Shown: positions 19,386 through 38,096 of the stretch, piece by piece
Layout: the number at the start of each line of letters is the position of its first letter
Numbering within the stretch: position 1 is the stretch's first letter
Source of the DNA: an uncultured Eubacterium sp.
Lineage (GTDB): Bacteria; Bacillota; Clostridia; Lachnospirales; Lachnospiraceae
Reading direction: 5' to 3'
Length of the DNA: 38,096 nt
Assembly (NCBI GenBank): GCA_947384955.1
Contig: CANDJC010000035.1
Location: 1-38,096 of the forward strand
Program-made: the position numbers and the translations under genes
Notes under the pieces: generated by a model
Databases searched by the model: none
What the model saw: only the letters and a program-made list of their open reading frames with translations
What the model was told of the DNA's origin: nothing

Positions 19386-19530
19386 GCGGGGGATGCTATT
19401 TCATGGCAGGATTTTTTGCTGATGGATGGGCGGTTTTGCTTGCAGGGTGACTGGGAACGGGGGAGATGGTTTTGCGGTTTTGCTTTCGGAGGTGACTGGG
19501 ATGGGGATGAGGGGGTATTGCTTTCGGGAC
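19386..19530. other. G-rich low-complexity lead-in to hairpin repeat A
   Basis: No gene. The plus strand is rich in GGG with repeated GGTTTTGCTT and GGTGACTGGGA words, ending in ATTGCTTTCGGGAC, which also precedes the other hairpin copies. Confidence 0.6.
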
Positions 19531-19814
19531 GCCAGAGTGAGAAGCGGTCTGCTTTCTGATGTTCCGCTTCCGAAAAGCAGGAAGTTCTAAACTTTCTGCG
19601 GCGGGGCTTGTGGCAGCGGACGGACCGGCGCCTGATGCCCTGACGTTATTGGATGATTTTACACTGTGGCACTGGCAAGCGCCTTTTGGGGACTTTAAGG
19701 CTTTATAGGGCGATATGCAGTGTGTCCCCAAATCCTGTGTATTGGGCAGAAAGTTAAGAACTTCCAGCTTTTCTCCAGAGTCACATCAGAAAGCAGACCG
19801 CTTCTCCCTCTGGC
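19531..19814 (+). repeat. Hairpin repeat copy A (284 bp)
   Basis: Outer arms 19531-19561 and 19784-19814 are complementary at 30 of 31 positions. An inner stem, 19573-19599 with 19746-19772, pairs 25 of 27 positions around two conserved A-A mismatches. The tip contains two further stems, one GGCGCC-based and one GGGGAC/GTCCCC. Frames running through it on either strand are judged spurious. Faces copy B in convergent orientation. Confidence 0.88.
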
Positions 19815-20560
19815 TGTTTTTGGCTAAATTTACGTTTTAAAGCTGGATGGACGTTTTTGTCATGTTAGCAAGCGGCTGGCAAAATTTAATAGATTGTCTC
19901 TTTCTGTCAGATATTTCATACTGGCTGAAGTTCAGAATTTTGACAGTTTAAATTTTGCAAAAACCGCTGCTGATTCATAGAAGACAGTGTCAGAATAATT
20001 TTACATTTTTACCAGTTTACAGCTTTTTTATATTAAAGTATTTTGGAATACACAGCTATATATTGTATCTAATTTTAACTGCATAATCTATATATAGTAT
20101 GGAATCAAAAACTTAATAACTGGTATTGTATTTAGTTACATGAGTTTACAAATTTTTGATTTGATACAAGATACAAATTAAATAGAAGCGTGTTTAAACA
20201 AAACAACAGTTTACATCTTTTTAGATTTTAGCATCTTTTTGCAAAATACAGGCTAGACATTGTACATAATCATGATAATTGAATCTATATCTTGTACCTA
20301 ATCAAAAACTTGTAAACTGATGTTTATACAAAATATAGTATTGATTATTCCAAAAATATATCGAAATCTGAAAAACTGTAAACTGGTATTTAATTATAAC
20401 AGCATAATCTATATATGATATAGATTGAAAGGCTCATAATCTGATGTACATTTTCTAATTTACTAATAAATTAATAGCGACAGCCTCAAAACATAAATCC
20501 ATTCAAAACTGCCGTTAACCGCAAACGTCCCTGTCTTAAACGTAAATTCATCCAAAAACA
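19815..20560. other. AT-rich spacer between hairpin repeats A and B
   Basis: 746 bases without a convincing gene. It contains several CAGTTTACA/TGTAAACTG words. Two inverted copies of a ~36-bp unit ending in AAAACTTGTAAACTG lie at 20144-20179 and 20281-20319, and a 60-bp block at 20325-20386 is shared with the other spacer. Two direct copies of GCATAATCTATATA also occur. Confidence 0.75.
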
Positions 20561-20844
20561 GCCGGAGGGAGGAGCGGCTTCCTTTTGTATGTGACTCTGA
20601 AGAAAAGCTGGAAGTTCTTAACTTTCTGCCCAGTACACAGGATTTGGGGACACACTGCATATCGTCCAATAAAGCCTTGAAGTCCCCAAAAGGCGCCTGC
20701 CAGTGCCACAATGTAAAATCAGCCAATAACGCCAGGGCATCAGGCGCCGGTCCGTCCGCTGCCACAAGCCCCGCCGCAGAAAGTTTAGAACTTCCTGCTT
20801 TTCGGAAGCGGAACATCCAAAAGGAAGCCGCTCCTCCCTCCGGC
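20561..20844 (-). repeat. Hairpin repeat copy B (284 bp)
   Basis: The same element as copy A but inverted. Outer arms 20561-20591 and 20814-20844 match at 30 of 31 positions with their own sequence (core GGAGCGGCTTCCTTTTG). The inner stem and tip are nearly identical to copy A. Confidence 0.88.
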
Positions 20845-20903
20845 GTCCCGAAAGCACTCCCCCTCCACCATCTCCCCCAAATCAATCTTCCTTCAGTTTC
20901 ACC

Positions 20904-20932
20904 TTGCATTTTTCACAAATTAAATATAAGAT
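20904..20932 (+). promoter_or_regulatory. Promoter of the DUF6273 gene
   Basis: TTGCAT (20904-20909), 17 bases, TAAGAT (20927-20932). It lies 60 bases outside hairpin copy B and about 90 bases before the coding start. Confidence 0.55.
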
Positions 20933-21023
20933 ATATGCAGGCAGACTAACCTCTGCCGCAAAATTAACAAGATACCACAATCAGGCGGACTGCACAGCCC
21001 TCCTGAAAAGAAAGGAGCTGCTT

Positions 21024-22277
21024 ATGGCGAAAAAGAAGAAGAAACCCGAAATAGTCCTGACACCGGAGCAGCAGCGGGAAGCGGATTATCAGAAAGCTGT
21101 CCGGCGCATGGAAGGTGCCGAAAAAATGCTGCAGGCAGAAGACAAAGTTCATATGTATAGAGAAGCCATAAGAATGTTTGAGGAGCTGGATGATTACGAA
21201 GACAGCCAGATACGCAAAAAACGATGCCGCAAACGTCTCCCGCTGGCACGCAGAGAGCACCGCGAGGAAGTATATCAGGAAGGCATGCGGTTAAAAGCCG
21301 AAGCGAAAAGTGCAGCTGACTACGAAGCCGCCATTGCAGAATTCCGGCGTCTGAGACGTGAATATAAAGATATTCCCGAGCAGATAAAGGAATGCGGACA
21401 GTTAAAAGAAGCTGCCAGAAAAAATGAACGTCGAAAAGCTGTTACAGGCCGCCTTGCGGCAGCAGCTATACTGGCAGCGGTCATTGGAGCTGTCATATTT
21501 TTATGCTCCCCGCAGGCATTCTATCTCGAAGGCAGTTTACTGATGGGCATTCAGGACTACGAGCGCGCAGACACTCTGTTTTCCAAAAGCCGGGGATATA
21601 AAGATACCGATAAACGCGTTATGGAATGCAATTATCAGCGAGCCGTAAAGGCTGCCGAAAACGGTGATTATAAAAAAGCTGTCCGTCTTTTGAGCAGTAA
21701 AACAGGCGACTATAAAGACTCCCTTGAAATAAAAGCAAAATATGAAAAAGAAATACTAAAAACTGCCAGAATCGGCGATACCGTTACTTATGGAAATGTA
21801 AAATGGATTGTGGCAGACGAAGCCGGCGGCTCCCAGAGATTTCTCCTTCTTGTCCGTAAAAATCCGGCAAAAGCTGAAACCGTATATCAGACATCCGGCC
21901 AGCCGGCATCGTGGGAAAATTCGAAACTGCGCAGCTGGCTGAATCAGGATTTTTTCAATACCTGTTTTTCTAAATACGAGCAGCCGGATGTTCTGGAAGC
22001 AAATATCACAGCCAGAGCAAACAGTACCTACGGCACATCGGGCGGCGGCGATACAAAAGACCATATATTTCTGCTGGATGAAACAGAGGCAGAACGCTAT
22101 CAGGAAATTTTAAAACTAAAGGACAGCCAGAAATCATGGTGGCTGCGTACGCCCGGCAAATCCTCCGACAGCGCCGCATTTGTATCCGCTGACGGAACCA
22201 TTATGCCTTATGGATATGCAGCAGACTCCATGGACATTTCCGTTCGGCCGGCAGTGTGGGTGCAAAGCGGCAGATAA
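21024..22277 (+). CDS. Membrane protein with C-terminal DUF6273 domain
   Basis: A 417-residue protein. It starts with a basic segment MAKKKKKPEIVLTPEQQREA and a charged helical region with repeat-like MYREAIRMFEELDDYEDSQI units resembling TPR-type helices. A transmembrane helix follows at about 145-165 (LAAAAILAAVIGAVIFLC). A second set of TPR-like repeats (ADTLFSKSRGYKDTDKRV) precedes the C-terminal DUF6273 domain (about 255-417) with TVTYGNVKWIVADE, SWENSKLRSWLNQDFFNTCF, DHIFLLDETEAERY, WWLRTPG and SVRPAVWV. Its function is unknown; the domain is likely extracellular. GAAAGGAGC precedes the ATG. Confidence 0.85.
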   Translation: MAKKKKKPEIVLTPEQQREADYQKAVRRMEGAEKMLQAEDKVHMYREAIRMFEELDDYEDSQIRKKRCRKRLPLARREHREEVYQEGMRLKAEAKSAADYEAAIAEFRRLRREYKDIPEQIKECGQLKEAARKNERRKAVTGRLAAAAILAAVIGAVIFLCSPQAFYLEGSLLMGIQDYERADTLFSKSRGYKDTDKRVMECNYQRAVKAAENGDYKKAVRLLSSKTGDYKDSLEIKAKYEKEILKTARIGDTVTYGNVKWIVADEAGGSQRFLLLVRKNPAKAETVYQTSGQPASWENSKLRSWLNQDFFNTCFSKYEQPDVLEANITARANSTYGTSGGGDTKDHIFLLDETEAERYQEILKLKDSQKSWWLRTPGKSSDSAAFVSADGTIMPYGYAADSMDISVRPAVWVQSGR

Positions 22278-22299
22278 TCCTGCAATTCTGGCGCTGAAG

Positions 22300-22460
22300 A
22301 ACTGGCATCTGGTTAGCTGATGTGCTTTGAAAACTGGCAGCCTGGTTAATGCTATGTTCTGGAAACTGACAGCTGGTTAATGCTGCGCTCCGGGAACCGG
22401 CAGCAGCCTGATTTAAGGCTGTGCTCTGGAAACTGGCAGTCTGGCTGCTTCTGACAGCTT
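22300..22460. repeat. Degenerate tandem repeats of 32-35 bp
   Basis: About five imperfect units of the form GAAACTGGCAGCTGGTTAA followed by TGCTGTGCTCTG. They fill the gap between the DUF6273 gene and the ATPase gene. No gene or terminator is evident within them. Confidence 0.6.
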
Positions 22461-22530
22461 CCAAGACCGTGGCGGTCCGGCACAGATAATTTCTATCACA
22501 GACACAAGCACTGAAAGGATGTAAAACCGC

Positions 22531-24117
22531 ATGGGTATTTATGTAAATCCTAAAAATCTGTTATTTCAGGAAGCTTTGCGTTCCTTAATCTATGTAGATA
22601 AAAGTGAACTGATTCATTATACAAACAGCGTATTGAAAACACAGCGGAAAAATATATGCGTCAGCCGTCCGCGCCGTTTTGGAAAATCCATGGCTGCAGA
22701 TATGCTTACTGCTTATTACAGCCGCGGCTGTGATTCAAAAGAACTGTTTGCGAGCCTGAAAGTATCTCAGAAACATACAGCTATATATGAAGCAAATCTG
22801 AATCAGCACAATGTCATCCGTTTCGATGTTCAGAGATTTCTCTTTGACGAATCACATGTTTCTATTTTTATCAAAAGAATTCAGGATGTCATTATCAGAG
22901 AATTAAAATCTGAATTCGGGGAATATATTGCCGACGCAGCTGACCCATACGGTCTGCCTGGCGTTTTGGAACAGATTTATGCCCGCACAGGCAGCGGATT
23001 TGTTTTTATCATTGACGAGTGGGACTGTGTATTCAGACTGGAAAAAGAAAATACAGCCGTGCAGAAAAAATACCTTGAATTTCTCCGCGGACTTTTCAAA
23101 GGCTCAGAATATGTGGAGCTTGCCTATATGACAGGCATTCTGCCCATTAAGAAATACGGGGAGCATTCTGCATTAAATGTCTTTGATGAATACTCGGTAA
23201 CAGATCCAAAAAACCTTAGTGAATATTTTGGATTTACAGAAACTGAAGTCCGGGAACAGTGTGTAAAATTCAATGCTGATTTCTCAGAAATGCAAAAATG
23301 GTATGACGGCTATCAGCTGGGAGATTTTCATATTTATAATCCAAAGTCTGTTTCTGATGCTCTTACATGGAAAAATTTTAAAAGCTACTGGACCGGCACA
23401 GAGACATATGAAGCGCTAAAAGTTTATATAGAAAGAAATTTTAACGGGCTGAAAGAAGCTGTTATTGAAATGCTCGGAGGCGGTCAGTGCAGAATTGATA
23501 CGGCTGCATTTCAGAATGATATGGTTACATTCCATACCAAAGATGATGTGCTGACTTTGCTTGTGCATCTTGGATATCTGACTTATTCGGAACAGGACAG
23601 CCTTGTTTTTATCCCAAATCAGGAAATCTCACAGGAATTCAGGCGGGCTGTAAGAACTGGAAACTGGGGAAATCTTATGGAAGCGCTGAATCGTTCAGAA
23701 GAACTTCTAAAACATACATGGGAAATGGATGCAGATGCTGTTGCCAGGGGAATCGCAGACGTCCGCAAAGATGTATCTTCAATTATCCAGTATAACAGTG
23801 AAAATTCAATAGCCTGTGCTCTTTACACAGCATATGCCAGTGCCCAGGCATATTATATGAAACCGCTTCGGGAACTGCCTGGCGGAAGAGGATTTGCTGA
23901 TATTGTTTATCTTCCCCTCAGAAACAGCGACAGACCCGCACTTTTAATTGAACTAAAATGGAATAAATCTGCACAGGGAGCAGTCAGCCAGATTAAAAAT
24001 AAGAACTATGCTGACTGGATTGTAAATTATACAGGAGATATACTTCTTGTTGGAATCAATTATGACAAAAAGAAAGATACCCACGAATGCATCATTGAAA
24101 AATATAGAAAAGAATAA
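22531..24117 (+). CDS. AAA-ATPase-like protein with DUF1703 nuclease-type domain
   Basis: A 528-residue protein. The N-terminal AAA_ATPase-like domain has NPKNLLFQEALRSLIYVDKS, a Walker A-like SRPRRFGKSMAADML and a Walker B FVFIIDEWDCVF. The C-terminal part resembles DUF1703, a PD-(D/E)xK-like fold, with GGRGFADIVYLPLRN and ALLIELKWNKSA (D and ExK positions). Such proteins are abundant and multi-copy in gut Firmicutes and Bacteroidetes; their function is unknown. AAAGGATG lies upstream of the ATG. Stand-alone gene. Confidence 0.9.
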   Translation: MGIYVNPKNLLFQEALRSLIYVDKSELIHYTNSVLKTQRKNICVSRPRRFGKSMAADMLTAYYSRGCDSKELFASLKVSQKHTAIYEANLNQHNVIRFDVQRFLFDESHVSIFIKRIQDVIIRELKSEFGEYIADAADPYGLPGVLEQIYARTGSGFVFIIDEWDCVFRLEKENTAVQKKYLEFLRGLFKGSEYVELAYMTGILPIKKYGEHSALNVFDEYSVTDPKNLSEYFGFTETEVREQCVKFNADFSEMQKWYDGYQLGDFHIYNPKSVSDALTWKNFKSYWTGTETYEALKVYIERNFNGLKEAVIEMLGGGQCRIDTAAFQNDMVTFHTKDDVLTLLVHLGYLTYSEQDSLVFIPNQEISQEFRRAVRTGNWGNLMEALNRSEELLKHTWEMDADAVARGIADVRKDVSSIIQYNSENSIACALYTAYASAQAYYMKPLRELPGGRGFADIVYLPLRNSDRPALLIELKWNKSAQGAVSQIKNKNYADWIVNYTGDILLVGINYDKKKDTHECIIEKYRKE

Positions 24118-24157
24118 TTCCTGCCATCACGGATATGCGTCTGTCCGGCAGTATAAC

Positions 24158-24236
24158 ATACTTTTCTTCTGCTGTTTATTTTGAAACTGTCAGATGTTTT
24201 ATCCGTATCAGATATAAACAGCAGAAAGAAAAGTAT
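24158..24236. repeat. 22-bp inverted repeat after the ATPase gene
   Basis: ATACTTTTCTTCTGCTGTTT (from 24158) is repeated inverted at 24214-24236 with a single-base insertion. The loop is about 34 bases. It could be a terminator-like stem or a small mobile remnant. No other gene is seen between 24118 and 24373. Confidence 0.65.
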
Positions 24237-24373
24237 ATTTCTTATCAGCAGATACGCCTGCTATTCTTTCTGCGGACTGCACAGCGCCTGCATTCACTGA
24301 CTGGCAAATCACAAAACTTCCGTCTTCACCCGCCCTGAATTAGAAAGCATCCGTGCCTTTGCCTTCCAGAACA

Positions 24374-25804
24374 TCAGAGTACATCTGCCTTCACTTTCTT
24401 TGAATAAGCCCCATACAGCCTTTCTCCGTTACTTCCCAGTTCATACGCCCGGACTCTGACATAATATGTTTTCCCGCTTTTGAGGCCTGTAATCACGCTG
24501 GAAGTATTTTCGGATTCCTGTTTCGCAGCTTGCAGCATCGCTCCGTTTATGGCATACTGCACCGAATAGCCGTCGCATTCTCCAGCCGGAGTCACGCTGA
24601 CGGAAAGTGCGCCTTTTTCTGTACTGGCCAGCACAATTTCTTCCGGCACACAGCCTGGCGCCAGCACATTTGCTGCTGTATCCGGCATATTTGCCGCATC
24701 TGCATCAAAAGCTGCCGCAGCGGCCGGAACGATATTTTCCCATTCAGGAGACATAACATGCTCTTGTTTTTCTGTATCAGCTGCTAAGAGCTGTTCATCT
24801 GTTACATTTAAAAATGTATCGTCGCCTCTGGCATCATCCCAGGTACAGTCTGCATTATACCAGGTATTTCCCATGCGCACTTTATTCCATGCGTGGCTGT
24901 CGCTTGTAACTGTGATACAGGGAATACCGGCGCGGCTGCACAGCAGTGTAAACAGCTGGGCATATCCGGCACAGACTGTCGACTGGCTGAATAATACCGC
25001 GCTGATGCAGCTCTGGCTCATTTCCGGGTCATTTGGATCTTCTGCCTGTGTGCTGTAATTATAATCTGTCTGCTCGCAGACCAGCTGATGAATCAGACGC
25101 TCTTTCTCTGTTACGGTTTCCGCCGCAAGAATCTGTTCATCCCAGGCTTTGAGTTTTTCGGCAAACAGGCGGGTATATTCCGCCCTGGCCGTTCCGTCTG
25201 CAAATATTTCGTATAAACCGACGCTCATCATATTTGAATTTTCAGAATACACCACTGAATTTCTCATAAAATAATACTGCGGGTTTTCATACATAAAACA
25301 ATAGAACACTTTTTTCATCTGCTCTGAGGTAAGTCCCTCATAAGATATCAGCGGCAGAATGTACGCTGTAACATTTTCCCCGTCCCGCACGGCCTGCGTC
25401 TGCAGAAAGTTATCTGTTCCTGTCAGATACATGTCGGCCTGTTTTTTCAGGTTCAGGTATAGTTTTTTCTCAGCGGTATTTAGCAGGCTGAAATAATAAT
25501 CGCCTCCGCTTTTCGCCCATTCGCTTTCCGCCAGGTTATAGCTGTCAGCGGATGTTTCCTGCAGATTTTTCAGCGACAGGGCGCCTTTGTTTTCTAACTC
25601 GTCCGTCTGAAGAAATTCTGTCTGCATTTCAGTTACCGGCATCTGGTCAGAACTGTAATTCTTCTCACGGTCTGGCTGAATGTCTTTATCTGCATCTAAA
25701 TTCTGCTGCGGCGTTTCTGCCAGTGCCTGTACCGGAACGCACAGAACACCTCCCGCCAGCATTAATGCTGCCATGCCGCCGGCAATCAGTTTTTTTGCAT
25801 TCAT
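24374..25804 (-). CDS. Secreted transglutaminase-like protein with fibronectin domain
   Basis: A 476-residue exported protein. The signal peptide is about 1-30 (GGMAALMLAGGVLCVPVQAL). The transglutaminase-like core has the Cys in VCAGYAQLFTLLCSRAG, the His in SDSHAWNKVRMG and the Asp in WYNADCTWDDARGDD, a complete triad. A Pro/Ala linker leads to a C-terminal fibronectin type III domain (SVTPAGECDGYSVQYAINGA, YYVRVRAYELGSNGERLYGA). Family members are thought to be cysteine peptidases or cross-linking enzymes at the cell surface. It follows murI after 65 bases. Confidence 0.88.
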   Translation of the reverse strand: MNAKKLIAGGMAALMLAGGVLCVPVQALAETPQQNLDADKDIQPDREKNYSSDQMPVTEMQTEFLQTDELENKGALSLKNLQETSADSYNLAESEWAKSGGDYYFSLLNTAEKKLYLNLKKQADMYLTGTDNFLQTQAVRDGENVTAYILPLISYEGLTSEQMKKVFYCFMYENPQYYFMRNSVVYSENSNMMSVGLYEIFADGTARAEYTRLFAEKLKAWDEQILAAETVTEKERLIHQLVCEQTDYNYSTQAEDPNDPEMSQSCISAVLFSQSTVCAGYAQLFTLLCSRAGIPCITVTSDSHAWNKVRMGNTWYNADCTWDDARGDDTFLNVTDEQLLAADTEKQEHVMSPEWENIVPAAAAAFDADAANMPDTAANVLAPGCVPEEIVLASTEKGALSVSVTPAGECDGYSVQYAINGAMLQAAKQESENTSSVITGLKSGKTYYVRVRAYELGSNGERLYGAYSKKVKADVL

Positions 25805-25869
25805 TTTATTATCCCTTTCTCGTATTCTTTGAAAGCAAAGCTGCTTCCCTAAATAATACGAAAAAGAGT

Positions 25870-26667
25870 CTATTTTTTTTGGAATAAGTTCCAGCTTAAT
25901 TCAATTTCTTCCTCTTTTGCCAGACTGTTCTCAAACGTAACCGTTCCGCGCTCCCTGCGGGATGTCCGAAGCCCGGCCTTTGTCAGACGCCTGCACATTT
26001 CCCTGGCGGTTCCGTTTCCCCCGTCAAAAATACGGACCCGCTCTCCCGCAAGCTCCTCAATCATCCTGCGCACGAACGGATAATGCGTACAGCCAAGTAC
26101 AATGGAATCTATTTCCCTTAAATACGGCGAAAGCAGTTCTTCCAAAAACTGCTTTAAATCTTCTCCGTCCGTATTTCCGGTTTCTACAAATTCCATCAGT
26201 CCCGGGCATGGAAGGCCGATAATGTCCGCCTTCTGCTCATAACGCATCATCAGCGTTTTATATTTTTCTAACTGAATGGTCATCGGCGTAGCCATTACCA
26301 GCACCGTCGGATGCCCTGGCTGCAGAGCCGCCGGCTTTAACGCCGGTTCGATGCCGACCAGCGGTATATCCGGATACATATTCCGAAGAACGCGCACGGC
26401 AGCGGCAGTCGCTGTATTGCATGCGACTACAATGCCTTTTGCGCCCTGCCTGAGCAAAAATTCTACATTTGCAATTGTCAGCCTGCGGATTTCTTCCAGC
26501 GGCTTTGTGCCGTACGGGGCATTGATGGAATCGCCAAAATAAATATAATTCTCTTCCGGCATCACTTTGCACAATTCCCTTAAAACACTGATTCCGCCGA
26601 CTCCGGAATCGAATACGCCGACTGGCTGATTCCTGTCCAAAGCCAGATTTTGTCTTATCTCTTCCAT
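25870..26667 (-). CDS. murI: Glutamate racemase
   Basis: A 265-residue enzyme that supplies D-glutamate for peptidoglycan. The first catalytic Cys is in VACNTATAAAVRVL, the second in VLGCTHYPFVRRMI. The N-terminal VGVFDSGVGGISVLRE and YFGDSINAPYG are diagnostic. Full length, normal. AGGGGATAAGC precedes the ATG. It is 27 bases after the GH25 gene, inside a cell-wall cluster. Confidence 0.96.
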   Translation of the reverse strand: MEEIRQNLALDRNQPVGVFDSGVGGISVLRELCKVMPEENYIYFGDSINAPYGTKPLEEIRRLTIANVEFLLRQGAKGIVVACNTATAAAVRVLRNMYPDIPLVGIEPALKPAALQPGHPTVLVMATPMTIQLEKYKTLMMRYEQKADIIGLPCPGLMEFVETGNTDGEDLKQFLEELLSPYLREIDSIVLGCTHYPFVRRMIEELAGERVRIFDGGNGTAREMCRRLTKAGLRTSRRERGTVTFENSLAKEEEIELSWNLFQKK

Positions 26668-26694
26668 TGCTTATCCCCTGGAATTTATAAACTG

Positions 26695-29484
26695 CTATTC
26701 ATATTCTGCATTGACGTCCACCGCCGACAGCTCGCCTGCTTCATTTGTAATTCCGTCTACATGAAAATCAGAGCCGCTGTACTGCCCGCTGTTATACTGC
26801 CAGTATTTTACATTTCCAGTACCAGTATAACCAGTTCCAAGCGCCACATTCCGGTAGCGCGCAATCCATAAATCAATGCCGTCCAGTTTTGTCTTATCCA
26901 GATTTGAATTTAAAAATGTCAGATAGCTGTACAGTACAAAATCATATCCCGCATCTTCAATAACCTGTTTAAATGCCTGTATCATCTGATGCAGCTTTTC
27001 TTTCGTCATGGTTTTGGATTTATGTATGGCATCTTCCATATCAAAAGCAACCGGATATTCCAGTTTTCTTCCATTTAATATTTCCAGTACAATGCGCGCC
27101 TCTTCCTGCGCTTCTTCTGCCGTAGCTGCGCGGCTGTAACAGTATACACCTAACGGCATTCCGACAGATGACGCATTCATGTATTTGGTTTCGAATGTAT
27201 AATCTTCCTGATAGTGATTGCTGATGCGCAGAAACGCAAAATCAATGCCGGAATTTTTCACACGGCACCAGTCCACGTCTTCCTGCCATCTGGATACATC
27301 GATTCCGTTGCGAATCCCCGGTGTCACGGATACCGAAGCAGTGGCTTTCTTTCCGCCGACTGTCACCGTTACATTTGCCGTGCCGTAAGATTTGCCCGTT
27401 ACCAGACCTTCGCTGTTTACTTCTGCAATCTCCGGCTTATCTGATGTCCATTCTGCCTCTTCTTCCTCATATTCTGAAAATGCTGTAAATGCAAGCGGTT
27501 TGGAAACGCCCACACATAATTTCAGCGTACGGGTATTCAGCGAAACGCCGCCTGTCTGATAGCTTACCGGCTTGCACTGGATTCCTTCGCCGCCTGCTCC
27601 TGACGCCGATACTTTATAATAATAAGTCCGCCCGTCTGCGCATCCGGTATTCGTATATGTATTTTCTTCCAGCCCTTCTGCAATGCGGGTATACGTTCCT
27701 TTCGCAGACACGGAACGGTATAAATTGTAGCTTTGTGCCCCCGGCGATTCATTCCAGCTTATCTCAAGCACATCTGTATCTGTCTGTCTGACCGTAAGCC
27801 CGATGGGTGCACTCGGCGTCAGATTTCCTTCCATGATATCGCTTGCCTGGCTGAGCCCCTTATAAGAGCCATTCGTATAAAGCGCTTTTATCCGGTAATA
27901 ATAAGTCCCGCCCGGCGCCACTGCACGGTCCTCATAGCCCACAAATGTGCCGCTCGGCCTGTCTGTAATTTTCTTAAATCCGCTGTCCGGCTCCGTGCTT
28001 CTGTAAATCCGGTATCCGGACGCGCCTTCCTGCTGCTCCCATTCCAGTGAAAGACTGCGGTTTGCAATATTCACATTCACCGACACCATAACCGGCGCCT
28101 CCGCCTTCGTCTGAACGGATACTGCTTCAGACAGTTCCCCGGCTGTAACGGTACCTTCCGCATCTTTTGTATAAGAACATATTTTATAAAAAAACGCTTT
28201 CCCCGGCACAATTTTTGCGTCTGTATAAGACAGCGTCTGGTTATTGGTAATCGTTTTGATTTTCCTGTAATTGCCTGCTTCCTTCACACTCCGGTAAATA
28301 TAATATCCGGCTGCCGCATCGTCTTTCTGCCACGTTAGTTTCGCTGAGCTGTATCCTTCCGGTTCACAGCTTTCAAACTGCATCCCCGGCGCCGGCTGCG
28401 GCTCTTCGGGAGAAACCTCTGCCGCGTCAGATAATTTCGCTTTTACCGTCTGCCCGTCCACATCACGGACTGCGCATACGCTGTACATGTAATTTTCTCC
28501 GGCAGAAGCTGTTTCATCCTCATAAGCCGCCTCTTCTGTCTGTGCAATTAATTCATACGATTCCTGCCCGTCTGTCTTGCGGTACAGTTCATAGCCCATT
28601 GCCCCGGCTACCTTTTTCCATTCCAGCATAACCGACTGCTCCGCTGAGGTGACATTTGTAAACTTTGTCTTCTTTAAATACGGTTTTGCCGCAACGGAAG
28701 CATACTTTCCTGAATTTCCATTTTTATCCAGTGCACAGACACGCAGACGGTACTTCGTGCCAGTCATAAGATTTTTACATTTAAAAGTCAGACTGTCCGC
28801 CGCTGCTGTTCCTGCCACTGTGTAATTTTGTGCGTCTTTTGTATATTCAATCTGGTATCCCGCTGCGCCTTCCACTTCGTCCCAGCTGAGCGTTACCGCA
28901 TTATATGCTGTCTTCTCTGCTTTTACAGTCAGCGGCGCCGGCAGCGTGCTGCTTTTTTTTGCAAGAATTTTTGCTAAGTTCTCTTCCCTGCAGTCCGTCT
29001 CATTTTCTGTATCAGAAGACGGCACAGATATCTGTTCCGTCCCCTGCGTGCCGGCTGCGGCCTGATTCTGTACCGGCTGCTCTGTTTCCTGTTCAGCAGC
29101 TTCAGATGAATTCTGCCCGGGCCTCCCGGTTCCCAATGCACCATCCCCGGCTGCTGCCTTCTCCTGCTGACCTTTTTCCTGCTCAGTTCCAGCGGCCTTT
29201 TCCTGCATCGGCCATTCCTCACCCTGTACCGTGCTGTTGCTGTCCGGTACTAAGTTTCCGGTACTGCCCGCGTCCTGCAATGACTGCTCTGCTTCATCCA
29301 GTCCGCTTTTTTTCTGCTGAACCGCTTCCTCCTGCTGACGGTTTCTTTCCTGCTGACTGTTTTCTTCCTGCCGGACACCGCCGTCCTGCAGCAGCGCTGC
29401 CGCTGGAATCTGCTGTGTCATCAGCACCGCCATGCCAATACACACCGCAGACAGCCGCAGCATTTTCTTTTTCTTATATGACAT
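26695..29484 (-). CDS. Secreted GH25 lysozyme with fibronectin and Big2 domains
   Basis: A 929-residue exported muramidase. The signal peptide covers about 1-32 (LSAVCIGMAVLMTQQIPAAA). A Gln/Glu-rich low-complexity stretch (about 35-170) follows, then five fibronectin type III domains (about 180-640), a Big2 domain (about 650-725, TSDKPEIAEVNSEGLVTGKS) and the C-terminal GH25 domain. The last has NGIDVSRWQEDVDWCRVKNS, the catalytic FDMED region and LDGIDLWIARY. It would cut peptidoglycan while anchored or secreted. The ATG at 29484 (MSYKKKKMLRLS) has GGAGGG five bases upstream. The preceding cysteine-rich gene ends 14 bases upstream. Confidence 0.92.
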   Translation of the reverse strand: MSYKKKKMLRLSAVCIGMAVLMTQQIPAAALLQDGGVRQEENSQQERNRQQEEAVQQKKSGLDEAEQSLQDAGSTGNLVPDSNSTVQGEEWPMQEKAAGTEQEKGQQEKAAAGDGALGTGRPGQNSSEAAEQETEQPVQNQAAAGTQGTEQISVPSSDTENETDCREENLAKILAKKSSTLPAPLTVKAEKTAYNAVTLSWDEVEGAAGYQIEYTKDAQNYTVAGTAAADSLTFKCKNLMTGTKYRLRVCALDKNGNSGKYASVAAKPYLKKTKFTNVTSAEQSVMLEWKKVAGAMGYELYRKTDGQESYELIAQTEEAAYEDETASAGENYMYSVCAVRDVDGQTVKAKLSDAAEVSPEEPQPAPGMQFESCEPEGYSSAKLTWQKDDAAAGYYIYRSVKEAGNYRKIKTITNNQTLSYTDAKIVPGKAFFYKICSYTKDAEGTVTAGELSEAVSVQTKAEAPVMVSVNVNIANRSLSLEWEQQEGASGYRIYRSTEPDSGFKKITDRPSGTFVGYEDRAVAPGGTYYYRIKALYTNGSYKGLSQASDIMEGNLTPSAPIGLTVRQTDTDVLEISWNESPGAQSYNLYRSVSAKGTYTRIAEGLEENTYTNTGCADGRTYYYKVSASGAGGEGIQCKPVSYQTGGVSLNTRTLKLCVGVSKPLAFTAFSEYEEEEAEWTSDKPEIAEVNSEGLVTGKSYGTANVTVTVGGKKATASVSVTPGIRNGIDVSRWQEDVDWCRVKNSGIDFAFLRISNHYQEDYTFETKYMNASSVGMPLGVYCYSRAATAEEAQEEARIVLEILNGRKLEYPVAFDMEDAIHKSKTMTKEKLHQMIQAFKQVIEDAGYDFVLYSYLTFLNSNLDKTKLDGIDLWIARYRNVALGTGYTGTGNVKYWQYNSGQYSGSDFHVDGITNEAGELSAVDVNAEYE

Positions 29485-29498
29485 TACTCCCTCCATTC

Positions 29499-29744
29499 TC
29501 AGTCTTTCTGACACACGGTCACACGTTTTATATTACAGTCCTGGATTCTGCCATGGCTGCAGTCAACCATGCCTTTTAAATAGCAAAATCCCTGTTCTTT
29601 CTTTTTTTCTGTTTTATTCTTTTTATTTGATTTGGATTTTTCGTTTTCCAGCGGACAGACAGCCGTCCTTTTATTATTGCAGTCCTGGATTGTCCCAGAC
29701 TCGCATTCCACAATCCCTTTTAAGTAACAAAACCTATTCTGCAC
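29499..29744 (-). CDS. 81-residue protein with two C-x7-C-x7-C-x7-C repeats
   Basis: An unrecognised small protein. It contains two copies of a 27-residue unit, FCYLKGIVECESGTIQDCNN plus KRTAVC and FCYLKGMVDCSHGRIQDCNI plus KRVTVC. In each the four cysteines are spaced exactly eight residues apart. A Lys/Asn/Glu-rich linker joins them. There is no signal peptide. Regular spacing suggests a beta-ladder with stacked cysteines, a metal site or disulfides. The GTG start has AAGGTGA upstream. It lies between degV and the GH25 gene with gaps of 35 and 14 bases, so it is probably co-transcribed. Confidence 0.72.
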   Translation of the reverse strand: MQNRFCYLKGIVECESGTIQDCNNKRTAVCPLENEKSKSNKKNKTEKKKEQGFCYLKGMVDCSHGRIQDCNIKRVTVCQKD

Positions 29745-29779
29745 ACCCCGTCACCTTCTCTTTCGCCCATATTTCCCAT

Positions 29780-30646
29780 TCACGCCCTGTCCATTTTCCG
29801 AATCAGAGCCAGCCCGTATGTTCCATAGCCAAGGTGCGTGGCAATGCTCAGCGGAATCGATGACATACTGCAGAAAACGCCAAAATAATCTTCAAAACTA
29901 TTCTTTAATTTTCCCGCTTCCTCAGCCGTCATGCTGGCAGCGGAAGCTAAATGAAATTCTTCAATCCCTTTTGCGTGAAAACGTTCTGTAATATCCTTTT
30001 GCAGCGCCTGCATCATCTTTTTGCGGACCGCTTTATCTCCCCGTACTTTCTCAGCCACTTCGATTTTTTCTCCCTGCAGATAAAGCAGAGGCTTGATATT
30101 TAACACATTTCCAATCATTGCAGAACCGGCTGAAATCCGTCCGCCCTGCTTTAAATATTTCAGATTATCTACCGTCAGATAAATAATACACTCATTCTTA
30201 ACATACTGCAGTCTGTTCCTGATTTCCAGTGCCGACAGCCCCTTCAGAGCCATTCTCCTTGCCTCCAGCACGGCGTATTTCTGCGTAACGGAAACACGGC
30301 CCAGGTCCGCAACGGTCACTCTGCCCTCATACTGCTGCGCCAGCGCCATTGCCGTATCACAGGAACTGCTCAGTCCGCTTGACATCGGAATATACAAAAG
30401 CTCTTCATACTGCTCTAAGACCTGCTCCCACAGCTGCGTGACATCGCCGGGATTCGGCTGCGAAGTATAAATGACACTGCCTCCCTTTTGTTTCCTAAAA
30501 AATTCATCATGTGTAATGGTCTGCCCTTCCAGATAAAGCTCGTCATCTATGTAAAACGGCATTGGCAGCACAAAAACACCGTATTTTCCAGCCTTTTCCT
30601 GTGATATACCGGAATTGCTGTCAGTTACAACTGCTGTCTTTTCCAT
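29780..30646 (-). CDS. DegV family fatty-acid-binding protein
   Basis: A 288-residue DegV protein. The N-terminal lobe has TAVVTDSNSGISQEKAGKYG and PMPFYIDDELY; then YTSQPNPGDV, YIPMSSGLSSS and the C-terminal lobe with NLKYLKQGGRISAGSAMIGN and LNIKPLLYL. DegV proteins bind fatty acids; some act as FakB partners of the fatty acid kinase, but which type this is cannot be said. First gene of the leftward envelope cluster. AAAGGAG precedes the ATG and a promoter lies about 40 bases further up. Confidence 0.93.
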   Translation of the reverse strand: MEKTAVVTDSNSGISQEKAGKYGVFVLPMPFYIDDELYLEGQTITHDEFFRKQKGGSVIYTSQPNPGDVTQLWEQVLEQYEELLYIPMSSGLSSSCDTAMALAQQYEGRVTVADLGRVSVTQKYAVLEARRMALKGLSALEIRNRLQYVKNECIIYLTVDNLKYLKQGGRISAGSAMIGNVLNIKPLLYLQGEKIEVAEKVRGDKAVRKKMMQALQKDITERFHAKGIEEFHLASAASMTAEEAGKLKNSFEDYFGVFCSMSSIPLSIATHLGYGTYGLALIRKMDRA

Positions 30647-30684
30647 AACAGTTCATGCTCCTTTTATCTATGATTTCTATTCCT

Positions 30685-30713
30685 ATTATTACAAATTTTC
30701 CGGTATACCGCAA
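30685..30713 (-). promoter_or_regulatory. Promoter of the degV-lysozyme-murI cluster
   Basis: Minus strand TTGCGG (30713-30708), 17 bases, AATAAT (30690-30685). Moderate match; a TAATAA with 16-base spacing overlaps it. Confidence 0.5.
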
Positions 30714-30729
30714 GCAGTTTTAGAAAGAA

Positions 30730-31068
30730 TCATGAGGAAATATATGGGCTGTTTCCGCAAAACTTTGCTATTTCCCTGATTAATTCAAGCGGAACATTAT
30801 CATATGGAAACTGAATTGCGCCTTTACTGTATTTAAAGCCGCGTTCTTTCAGCACTGGAGCAAAATGCTCTACTGCTTCCGGCCCCGGATACAGTCCTAA
30901 ATGCTTTTTCTGCGCCGCAAAATGAATCAAATTGTGTCCTTTCCAAAACGTCGGCATCTGCCAGCTTATCCGCTCCTGCGCATCAGGCAGTGCTTTGCGT
31001 ATCACATCACGTACCTGATGAAGAACAGGCTGAACTGAACTGTCCTGATTTAAAATATACTCATCCAT
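30730..31068 (-). CDS. DUF1801 (YdhG-like) small protein
   Basis: A 112-residue protein of the DUF1801/YdhG family. It starts MDEYILNQDSSVQPVLHQVR and contains ISWQMPTFWKGHNLIHFAAQ, KKHLGLYPGPEAVEHFAPVL and GAIQFPYDNVPLELI, the family signature. The fold is related to frataxin/CyaY-like proteins; its role is unknown. The ATG at 31068 has GGAGGAG upstream. It precedes the hairpin repeat pair C/D. Confidence 0.88.
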   Translation of the reverse strand: MDEYILNQDSSVQPVLHQVRDVIRKALPDAQERISWQMPTFWKGHNLIHFAAQKKHLGLYPGPEAVEHFAPVLKERGFKYSKGAIQFPYDNVPLELIREIAKFCGNSPYISS

Positions 31069-31232
31069 TATTCTCCTCCATCCAGCTACAGGCATTTTTG
31101 CATTGTGCAGCCTGGTGCTGGGGATATTTTAGCATTATGTACTGCGGATTTCAAGACAGCAGACTTCGGGAGTGCTGTATTGGGTGTGCGGGGTATGGGG
31201 GACTGATAGTTGTACGGTGTTTCTTTCGGGAC

Positions 31233-31513
31233 GCTGGACGGAGAAAATGTTTCCTTCGGATGTTCCGCTTCCAAAAAGCAGGAAGTTCTAAGTTTTCTGC
31301 GGAGGGGCTTGTGAAAACGGACGGACCGGCGCCTGATGCCCTGGCGTTTTTGGCTGCGGAAAGCTGTGGCACTGGCAGGCGCCTTTTGGGGACTTCAAGG
31401 TTTTATAAGACGGCAGGCAGTGTGTCCCCAAATCCTGGGTAATGAGCAGAAAACTAAGAACTTCCAGCTTTTTTCCAGAGTCACATCCGAAGGAAACACT
31501 TTCTCCGCCCAGC
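31233..31513 (+). repeat. Hairpin repeat copy C (281 bp)
   Basis: Same family as copy A. Outer arms 31233-31262 and 31484-31513 match at 28 of 30 positions with a private sequence (core AAAATGTTTCCTTCGG). The inner stem reads AGTTTTCTGC with GCAGAAAACT, where the other copies have AACTTTCTGC with GCAGAAAGTT, so two base pairs have changed together. Confidence 0.88.
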
Positions 31514-31996
31514 TGGTTATGACTGAATTTCAGTTTGATAATTTTGCTATACACGAGAAAATTCAAAATAATTTTTGAAAAAATATTTTTATCGTTTTTT
31601 TCAAATCTGCTCATTCATAGCTGTATAAATATATATGTTTAGTATTCATGAACCTGTATATTGGCATATAAACATCCGTTTACAGCTTTTCTGATTTCGA
31701 TATATTTTTATAATAATCAATACTATATCTTGTATATATTCGCCTTTTCTAATCTGTATCTTGTATCAAATCAAAAACTTGTAAACTGGCGGTATATAAA
31801 CTGACATACCATAAAATAACTGCCTTACATTAAATTCGAATAATATAAGTTTAGTGAAAACCAACTGAATTAATCTTAAACAAAATTTACTACCAGGCTT
31901 TCTTATATTTCTGCACTTAATGTTTTACGTATTGACAGTTTAAAAATAAATTAACACCGAACTGCCATTTTTAAAACGTAAATTCAGCCAAAACCA
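31514..31996. other. AT-rich spacer between hairpin repeats C and D
   Basis: 483 bases with no gene. It shares with the other spacer the unit ending TCAAAAACTTGTAAACTG (31751-31789) and, in inverted orientation, the block at 31675-31737. CAGTTTACA-type words recur. Confidence 0.75.
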
Positions 31997-32280
31997 GCTG
32001 GAGGGAGGAGAGGTCTGCTTTTGGATGTGACTCTGGAGAAAAGCTGGAAGTTCTTAACTTTCTGCTCATTACCCAGGATTTGGGGACACACTGCCTGCCG
32101 TCTTATAAAACCTTGAAGTCCCCAAAAGGCGCCTGCCAGTGCCACAGTGTAAAATAAGCCAGCAGCGCCAGGGCATCAGGCGCCGGTCCGTCCGTTTTCA
32201 CAGGCCCCTCCGCAGAAAGTTTAGAACTTCCTGCTTTTCGGAAGCGGAACATCCGAAAGCAGACCTCTCCTCCCTCCAGC
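31997..32280 (-). repeat. Hairpin repeat copy D (284 bp)
   Basis: Inverted relative to copy C. Outer arms 31997-32027 and 32250-32280 match at 30 of 31 positions (core GGAGAGGTCTGCTTTTG). Inner stem as in copies A and B. Confidence 0.88.
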
Positions 32281-32327
32281 GTCCCGAAAGCCCCCTCCTT
32301 CAAATATTCCAAAAATAAATTTTCTTA

Positions 32328-34441: not shown

Positions 34442-35371
34442 ATGACAGCTAAAATTTCCAATAGTAATAGTTACAGCCGTTATGCATATTCAGCTGGATA
34501 CACAAAGTTTCATTCTGCTCAAAATAACACATATCATTCTGCTGCCGCCAATGATACTGCATGTCTTTCCGCTGATGCCAAATATGCTGCACATCTTTCC
34601 GCTGATGCCAAAAACACCGCATATTTTTCCGCTGATGCCAGAAATGCCGCATATCTTTTCACTGATGTCAGAAATGCCGCATATCTTTCCGCCGATACAA
34701 AGAATACCGTGCATTTTTCCGCTGCCGCCAATGATACTGCATGTCTTTCCGCTGATGCTGAAAACGCCGTATATCACTCCAACGCCTTCTCATCCTCTCC
34801 AGGCTCAGCCAGCGGGAAGACAGCGGTTTTAAAAGGAAATCAGCCCTTTCAAATCCCCGCGCATGCGGAGCGCATGAAACAGTATGCGGCAGAATTAGCA
34901 AAGCTTGCCCCGAGCGTATCTTTCAGAGCCGGAAGCTCTTTTGCAAAAGAAAGAAGCGGCAAAACTTTAACGGTAAATCCCGGACTTCTGGTAAAGATGC
35001 TGCATGACCCGCAGCAGGAAAAAGACACAATGGAAATGATAAAAGGCGTGGAATTCATCACAAGATGGATGGACAGCATCTACAAAGCGAGCGGAAAAAC
35101 ACTGGTATACCGGCACAGCTATATCGACAGTGACGGCAGATATTACGCCTGTTCCTATGTGAAAAATGAACGCAGTCTGAAAATGAGTGCGGCTATGAGA
35201 AAAGAAAGACAAAAGAATTCACAAAAACTGATTTTAAAAACAAAAGAAAAAGCTGCAGCCCAAAAAAAGTCCCTGCAGAAAAAATCTGCTTCAGCAAAAC
35301 GGAAAAACCCGTGCATGCCGGGCAGAAAGAACGGAAATACAGCAGGTACCTCCGTGGACATACGGTTATAA
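34442..35371 (+). CDS. Repeat-bearing protein with DUF6033-like C-terminal domain
   Basis: A 309-residue protein. Residues about 25-115 are ten-residue tandem repeats of the type AAYLSADAKN (HLSADAKNTAYFSADARNAA). The remainder, from about 140, is a conserved-looking domain: QPFQIPAHAERMKQYAAELA, LVKMLHDPQQEKDTMEMIKG, TRWMDSIYKASGKTLVYRHS and IDSDGRYYACSYVKNE, reminiscent of DUF6033 proteins of Lachnospiraceae. The C-terminal tail is strongly basic. There is no signal peptide. Function unknown. A strong ribosome site (AAGGAGGAG) precedes the ATG. The repeat is recently expanded. Confidence 0.75.
   Translation: MTAKISNSNSYSRYAYSAGYTKFHSAQNNTYHSAAANDTACLSADAKYAAHLSADAKNTAYFSADARNAAYLFTDVRNAAYLSADTKNTVHFSAAANDTACLSADAENAVYHSNAFSSSPGSASGKTAVLKGNQPFQIPAHAERMKQYAAELAKLAPSVSFRAGSSFAKERSGKTLTVNPGLLVKMLHDPQQEKDTMEMIKGVEFITRWMDSIYKASGKTLVYRHSYIDSDGRYYACSYVKNERSLKMSAAMRKERQKNSQKLILKTKEKAAAQKKSLQKKSASAKRKNPCMPGRKNGNTAGTSVDIRL
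34532..34790. repeat. 30-bp tandem repeats in the 309-residue protein gene
   Basis: About eight or nine 30-bp units of form CTTTCCGCTGATGCCAAAAA plus ten bases. Unit length is divisible by three, so the frame is kept. The repeat array is open in several frames, which explains the overlapping reading frames on the other strand. Confidence 0.82.
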
Positions 35372-37893: not shown

Positions 37894-37980
37894 GTAATTT
37901 TGAAAGGTTTTCGATGCGGGAGACTGCTTTCAGATGAGAAAGGGATTGCTTTTGGGATGATGGGGGATTGCTTTCGGGAC

Positions 37981-37997
37981 GCCGGAGGGAGGAGCGG
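37981..37997 (+). repeat. Truncated hairpin repeat copy E
   Basis: GCCGGAGGGAGGAGCGG is identical to the first 17 bases of copy B, and the preceding ATTGCTTTCGGGAC also matches the lead-in of the other copies. The sequence then turns into a G-run and A-runs. Confidence 0.75.
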
Positions 37998-38096
37998 GGG
38001 GGGGGGGGGTTTTTTTAGGGAAAAAAAAAAAGAACCACTCAACAAAAAAAACAAAACCCAACACACACCCCCGCATTTTGTGTGATTTTTTTTATC
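37998..38096. other. Low-complexity contig end, probably artefact
   Basis: Homopolymer G and A runs and C/A-rich words with no resemblance to the other repeat copies. It begins exactly where a strong hairpin should follow, which suggests a sequencing or assembly failure. Confidence 0.7.

Follow-up and report, generated by a model that had tools for sequence, protein, structure and literature searches.

A large and abundant hairpin repeat of an uncultured Eubacterium sp., possibly REPIN-like and most likely maintained at the DNA level

Four hairpins on a contig of an uncultured Eubacterium sp. have outer stems that differ in sequence from copy to copy and nevertheless pair within each copy. 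Compensatory change is usually read as proof of RNA structure, and the question raised by this locus is whether an RNA or the DNA itself is being kept foldable. The window analyzed here is a stretch of 38,096 nt. An inverted-repeat search of the window returned the coordinates and arms given in a preliminary description: hairpin A at 19531..19814 (+ strand, inverted repeat 19531-19599/19746-19814), hairpin B at 20561..20844 (− strand, 20561-20629/20776-20844), hairpin C at 31233..31513 (+ strand, 31233-31300/31446-31513) and hairpin D at 31997..32280 (− strand, 31997-32065/32212-32280). A and C are assigned to subfamily 1; B is the inverted partner of A, and D that of C. The arms of the four hairpins are 85–87% complementary across 68–69 nt. 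Also legible in the sequence are the variable middles quoted in the same description, the compensation at two inner pairs in copy C and the pair of A-A mismatches kept across the four copies; in hairpin A the mismatches fall at 19579/19766 and 19589/19756 (positions counted by hand). When hairpin A was folded as DNA its energy was −79.5 kcal/mol, compared to a mean of −39.7 kcal/mol for shuffled sequences (z = −10.4; 0 of 200 shuffles equal).

Because B and D run opposite to A and C, the four hairpins form two convergent pairs (A→ ←B and C→ ←D), which extend over 19518-20857 and 31219-32292, respectively. The inverted match between A and B covers 326 nt at 91% identity, while C and D share inverted matches of 128 nt at 97% and 101 nt at 93%. 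The spacers are AT-rich. Model matches stop at 19841 and resume at 20535 in the first pair (spacer 19842..20534, with repeats common to other spacers), and stop at 31539 and resume at 31969 in the second (spacer 31540..31968). Of a fifth hairpin, the G-run, the foot and part of the outer stem are present at 37954..37997 on the + strand; it is broken off by the contig end, and the sequence that follows this segment to position 38096 is of low complexity (G-run, T-run, A-run). A coding origin was considered and rejected, as the two ORFs that run across hairpins had no Pfam family at E 1. Elsewhere in the window, a 30-bp tandem repeat (8 copies of the reference match) occupies 34492-34804 within the ORF at 34442-35371.

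Each hairpin is about 284–285 nt long. From the outside inward it begins with a G-tract and the foot GGACGC; an outer stem of roughly 30 bp follows, which an asymmetric internal loop separates from the inner stem, and a tip closes the structure. In hairpin A the outer G-run and foot (GGGGG...GGAC) occupy 19511..19530 (+ strand). A run of at least five G was present in 109 of 166 outer 50-nt flanks, compared to 84 of 4000 in the background, and a C-run in 0 of 166. The 5′ foot GGACGC was found in 93 of 96 subfamily 1 copies and the 3′ foot GCTG in 92 of 96. The outer stem is hypervariable in sequence and nearly perfectly paired. In subfamily 1 the asymmetric internal loop consists of TTCCGCTTCC facing CCAGAGTCAC. 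The inner stem carries the two A-A mismatches with 9 pairs between them (10 positions apart). Both mismatches persist across species while most adjacent pairs change, with deviation in some copies, for example in congener G011. The tip is built of near-invariant stems, to which subfamily 1 adds two variable loops.

The source genome (5.06 Mb in 271 contigs, 96% complete, 4.7% contaminated) contains many such hairpins. The subfamily 1 core GGACGGACCGGCGCCTGA, with at most 2 mismatches, matched 71 times on each strand (142 in total), and a reversed-pattern control matched 0 times. DNA around the first 100 listed core places and some others yielded 156 full or partial subfamily 1 copies; 96 of the 156 matches were full enough for alignment, and 109 score above 150. 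In the DNA fetched, which was chosen for hairpins, 34 of 40 contig ends lay within 150 nt of one. A second subfamily with a different tip gave 234 genome matches to its inner-stem pattern with at most 1 mismatch (control 0). Its places were fetched in part; 68 full copies were aligned, and 53 of 56 seeds were used for the outer-stem count. The two subfamilies are related, because the subfamily 2 model matches both arms of the window hairpins with E values of 1e-6 to 1e-8. The element of the preliminary description is real, and what had gone unrecognized is the convergent-pair unit, the hundreds of copies, the second subfamily and the tips that partners share.

Relatives of the element occur in other genomes of the genus in very different numbers. 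With at most 2 mismatches, a count that may include both arms of one hairpin, the subfamily 2 inner-stem pattern matched 318 times in the source genome, 214 in G002, 340 in G004, 107 in G009, 83 in G008, 24 in G003, 7 in G005, once in G001 and 0 times in five other congeners, with all controls at 0. Hairpins resembling subfamily 1 were seen in congeners G011, G012 and G007. A core-like pattern had a match in 112 of 397 family genomes, with 140 in the source genome and at most 5 in every other; the reversed control also matched other genomes in this search. A covariance model (R1) had matches in at least 8 of 13 genus genomes and at least 1 of 120 family genomes; it was left out of the abundance estimates, because its matches include other long hairpins, on either strand. 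One match among the 120 genomes, locus L239 in a different genus (G125), is a hairpin that resembles the family, having CTAAG/CTAAG and the loop AAGTCA. The exact 22-nt core gave 0 matches in a genomic contig collection and 0 in a viral contig collection, from which the organism's own genome was possibly excluded, and a distant-mode search of phage and plasmid records returned no match.

That base pairing is maintained, as previously proposed, was supported across species. Across 26 sequences taken from 7 genomes, covariation scored 0.66, compared to 0.22 for shuffled and at most 0.18 for slid partners; 96.3% of cells were paired versus 73.4% after shuffling, and 52 of 60 pairs had change on both sides. 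In this set the tip was removed before alignment and the structure was derived from the same sequences, which biases the values towards structure. Within the source genome, the outer stems of the 96 full subfamily 1 copies comprised 2760 Watson-Crick cells, 47 others and 2 gaps. Sixty-four of these 96 stems were perfect and 84 distinct 5′ arms were represented, whereas arms drawn from different copies were 75% paired (21258/28412). Subfamily 2 behaved similarly, with 39 of 53 stems perfect over 28 bp, 48 distinct arms and about 75% pairing between arms of different copies.

The nature of the rare departures from Watson-Crick pairing bears on the level at which complementarity is kept. According to PMC8794818, the usual view is that compensatory changes in RNA proceed via G-U. 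The subfamily 1 outer-stem departures were 19 A-C, 13 G-T and 15 other, plus the 2 gaps, and those of subfamily 2 (53 copies) were 12 A-C, 2 G-T and 3 other versus 1467 Watson-Crick cells. The inner stem had 1 G-T and 4 A-C against 2494 Watson-Crick cells. Across species, 30 G·U stood against 57 non-standard pairs in 1550 cells (26 sequences, 7 genomes). A count in other genomes, which was mixed with source-genome loci and is not independent evidence, gave 1198 Watson-Crick, 30 A-C, 14 G-T, 6 other and 24 gaps. As G-U intermediates are scarce, complementarity is most simply read as kept at the DNA level, and we consider DNA-level maintenance the most likely reading of these alignments. The preliminary description had left RNA, single-stranded DNA and arm-to-arm correction as options; of these the RNA fold is the least supported, G·T being about as rare as A·C. 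A-C exceeded G-T by 31 to 15 when the outer stems of both subfamilies were pooled, while eight hairpins of G004 had the reverse bias (8 G-T, 1 A-C). The excess gives a weak hint of a strand preference, for the outward-read strand if one matters, that pure DNA symmetry would not predict.

This excess would correspond to wobble on the outward-read strand if the hairpins were transcribed and compensation reflected selection on an RNA fold, be it an mRNA stabilizer, an RNase III substrate or a two-way terminator, the last being considered because the pair reads alike on both strands. A structured RNA would also be consistent with the strong cross-species covariation, with the asymmetric internal loop and retained mismatches, and with the T-runs that directly follow the 3′ foot (54 of 99 and 39 of 67 inner flanks). 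However, wobble is very rare in both the outer and inner stems, no Rfam model matched the window at the gathering threshold, and placement is independent of the orientation of neighboring genes, so that we regard an RNA as rather unlikely. With simple ORF calling, the flanking genes at the 38 classifiable sites of 76 clusters were in tandem in 24 cases, divergent in 8 and convergent in 6. The divergent flanks at just 8 of 38 sites also led us to reject a divergent-promoter element, which the window had suggested.

Hairpins were then considered as pairs. Neighboring hairpins within 1.5 kb were convergent in 36 of 36 cases in subfamily 1 and in 23 of 25 in subfamily 2, where the two tandem neighbors are split matches of one place each. 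All 76 neighboring convergent pairs fell within a single subfamily (52 in subfamily 1, 24 in subfamily 2), with mixed pairs at 0 of 76. Subfamily 2 partners differed in outer-stem class in 20 of 22 pairs, compared to an expected 11.2, a value reached in 3 of 10000 permutations, and their outer stems were less similar than chance (0.717 versus 0.770). As far as sequence can tell, the subfamily 2 pair is a unit having two distinct ends; the same partner test did not reveal a heterodimer rule in subfamily 1. Taken together, the 20 of 22 heterodimers and the lack of mixed pairs indicate that the pair is the likely unit. Some contig-internal hairpins have no recognized partner.

Spacers are AT-rich, with a mean GC content of 33% in subfamily 1, and range from 36 to 1515 nt (53 subfamily 1 cases) and from 81 to 2428 nt (25 subfamily 2 cases). 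An additional AT-rich repeat resembling TTTACAAGTTTTTGATTTGATACAAGATA is present in both window spacers, 19842-20534 and 31540-31968, and 28 of 53 subfamily 1 spacers match another spacer. The spacers at loci L143, L151 and L176 (contigs C72, C87 and C220) contain tandem arrays of the hairpin 3′ half, about positions 212–321 of the model. A few pairs enclose genes: one for a tRNA-editing-domain protein (L152, C89), GNAT acetyltransferases at L386 (C3) and L390 (C44), and a 277-aa protein without a Pfam match at L382 (C40). These enclosed genes look as if they could be cargo of the pairs. A switch operating by spacer inversion was rejected. Arms crossed between partners paired as unrelated arms do (1330/1810), indicating that arm swapping is not seen in the 30 full subfamily 1 pairs.

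Partners share their tips. In the 30 full subfamily 1 pairs, tip-loop identity between partners was 0.848 compared to an average of 0.598 (0 of 5000 permutations), whereas partner outer stems were not shared (0.710 versus 0.706; 1770 of 5000 permutations). Subfamily 2 tips were likewise common to partners (0.930 versus 0.887; 0 of 10000 permutations). Of 1648 loop sites, 250 differed between subfamily 1 partners, compared to only 28 of 1904 core sites, suggesting that the core is constrained within each pair. Conversion of the whole tip would hit cores and interleaved loops alike; alternatively, the loops could be hypermutable. The nearest non-partner loops had a median identity of 0.745 and a maximum of 0.909, and no whole pair stood out as a clearly recent copy in this comparison of subfamily 1 pairs.

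A constrained core would be expected if the pairs were a chromosome-wide DNA site bound by a host protein of folding, repair or replication, with selection at every locus and any origin. The regular A-A spacing, the foot and the G-tracts would fit such a site, as would the lack of obvious recent copies. On the other hand, the number of pattern matches varies from 0 to 340 among congeners, the subfamily-specific expansion resembles that of a mobile element, a pair is absent at one orthologous site and no binding protein was identified; we consider this explanation quite unlikely. The orthologous site (L240) comes from a MAG of an uncultured Eubacterium sp., the closest relative found via the symporter adjoining pair C/D (88% identity); the relatives obtained in this way suggest a Lachnospiraceae-like placement of the source organism. 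There the DegV gene (84%) and the symporter are 268 nt apart and the pair is absent, i.e. neither model detects a hairpin; the locus also lacks the DUF1801 gene.

Several solo hairpins were informative about arm correction. Two of them, C37:30942 and C41:31503, are chimeric: the 5′ half of one hairpin is fused to a stretch complementary to the 5′ half of a second one, and the point of fusion falls between the two A-A positions; exact matches to this junction pattern occurred only at these two sites. We read them as possible products of deletion between partners. Together with three similar congener copies they retain 5–13 arm differences over 36–41 positions, suggesting that passive arm correction is not fast (the five solo or chimeric hairpins were selected for having two outer feet). 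This result bears on whether the elements could be neutral palindromes upheld solely by replication template switching, without selection or mobility. Template switching has been proposed to create and maintain hairpins (PMC8794818, as described there), and the missing wobble excess would agree with it. However, such a process would be expected to remove the asymmetric loop and the A-A mismatches as well, yet both persist across species; moreover, the core is conserved while loops are variable, and the arms of solo copies are uncorrected. A purely neutral origin therefore appears improbable.

The convergent partners provide the terminal inverted repeats expected of a DNA transposon or MITE. 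A target site duplication was not detected, shared direct strings being 4.09 versus 4.10 by chance (53 pairs; element ends not exactly fixed). The search for a transposase tied to the hairpins found none: the genome has two Y1 matches, neither with a subfamily 1 hairpin within 1.5 kb, and one intact Y1 transposase, which is IS200-like.

The preliminary description knew of no named family with this design. Consistent with this, none of the papers listed in our literature search named the element, in line with the Rfam result for the window, although it is similar in type to REP/REPIN sequences and to stem-loop repeat families. The accounts of REP/REPIN sequences and the associated RAYT (TnpA-REP) in PMC3116915, PMC6006769 and PMC3733652 describe many intergenic palindromes, mostly in inverted doublets, with frequent heterodimers in some families and no link to gene orientation, as found here. 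According to PMC3733652, REPs measure 20–40 bp and REP families are short tagged palindromes in dimers, with heterodimers preferred in many and a CGTC type that has no known transposase. In contrast, the present hairpins measure about 285 nt, have an internal loop, A-A mismatches, a branched tip and spacers of 36–2428 nt, and carry the 5′ foot GGACGC rather than a GTAG/GTGG tag; nor was a RAYT gene flanked by repeats found at the two Y1 loci, judged by subfamily 1 hairpins within 1.5 kb. The CGTC-tagged REPs are similar in having GACG/CGTC at the palindrome foot, doublets and no known dedicated transposase. As PMC3733652 describes them, the CGTC tag opens and a CCA tail closes the element, with stems of 8–9 bp, whereas here the tag is on the opposite side, the 5′ foot having GGAC and the 3′ foot TG(G), and the outer stem is about 30 bp. 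Bacterial stem-loop repeat families such as ERIC and YPAL are likewise interspersed, intergenic and long, with models up to and above 200 bp; in the passages on them in PMC2267715, neither units of two convergent hairpins nor arm covariation of this sort is described. Intrastrand triplex repeats, as presented in PMC4666352, are also abundant and G/C-rich, and here the G-run adjoins a purine-rich stem arm, but the present element is much larger.

The best explanation for these observations is that the element is non-autonomous, REPIN-like and unusually large. We assign a probability of roughly 0.5 to the reading that these palindromic DNA repeats form a giant-REPIN-like family, intergenic and non-coding, which would have a convergent pair of hairpins of about 285 nt as its unit. 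The orthologous site without a pair counts in its favor, as do the matched but hairpin-specific arms and the shared tips; against it stand the negative results for a linked transposase, a target duplication and recent whole-pair copies, the uncorrected arms of solo hairpins, the A-C excess and the missing heterodimer rule in subfamily 1. Under the proposed mechanism each hairpin would fold by itself in single-stranded or cruciform DNA, and its outer arms would be matched by copying one from the other, through replication template switching or self-primed repair. Selection for DNA folding would also act and retain the foot, the asymmetric loop and both A-A mismatches, which may serve as a protein recognition site. 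The tips could be homogenized through gene conversion between partners, limited by their unlike outer stems, and a putative enzyme acting in trans would have spread the pairs. A more specific proposal, which we offer as tentative, is a new class of DNA element whose shared changes would reflect how it folds physically: stems would be corrected arm-to-arm in extruded hairpins and tips partner-to-partner where exposed loops meet. A hairpin-recognizing enzyme would then maintain or move hundreds of pairs, in some cases along with an enclosed gene, and its putative binding site would consist of the foot, the loop and the two A-A mismatches, which are separated from each other by roughly one turn of the helix.

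From this comparative analysis the element is real, abundant and, within the literature searched, undescribed, with foldability most likely kept at the DNA level. A large natural set of copies that covary almost without wobble offers a test set for distinguishing RNA selection from DNA-level hairpin maintenance. The hairpins may also be one cause of breaks in draft genomes such as this one, as judged from DNA selected for containing them. Should the pairs prove mobile or functional, REPIN-like elements would extend to a far larger scale and to this bacterial family.
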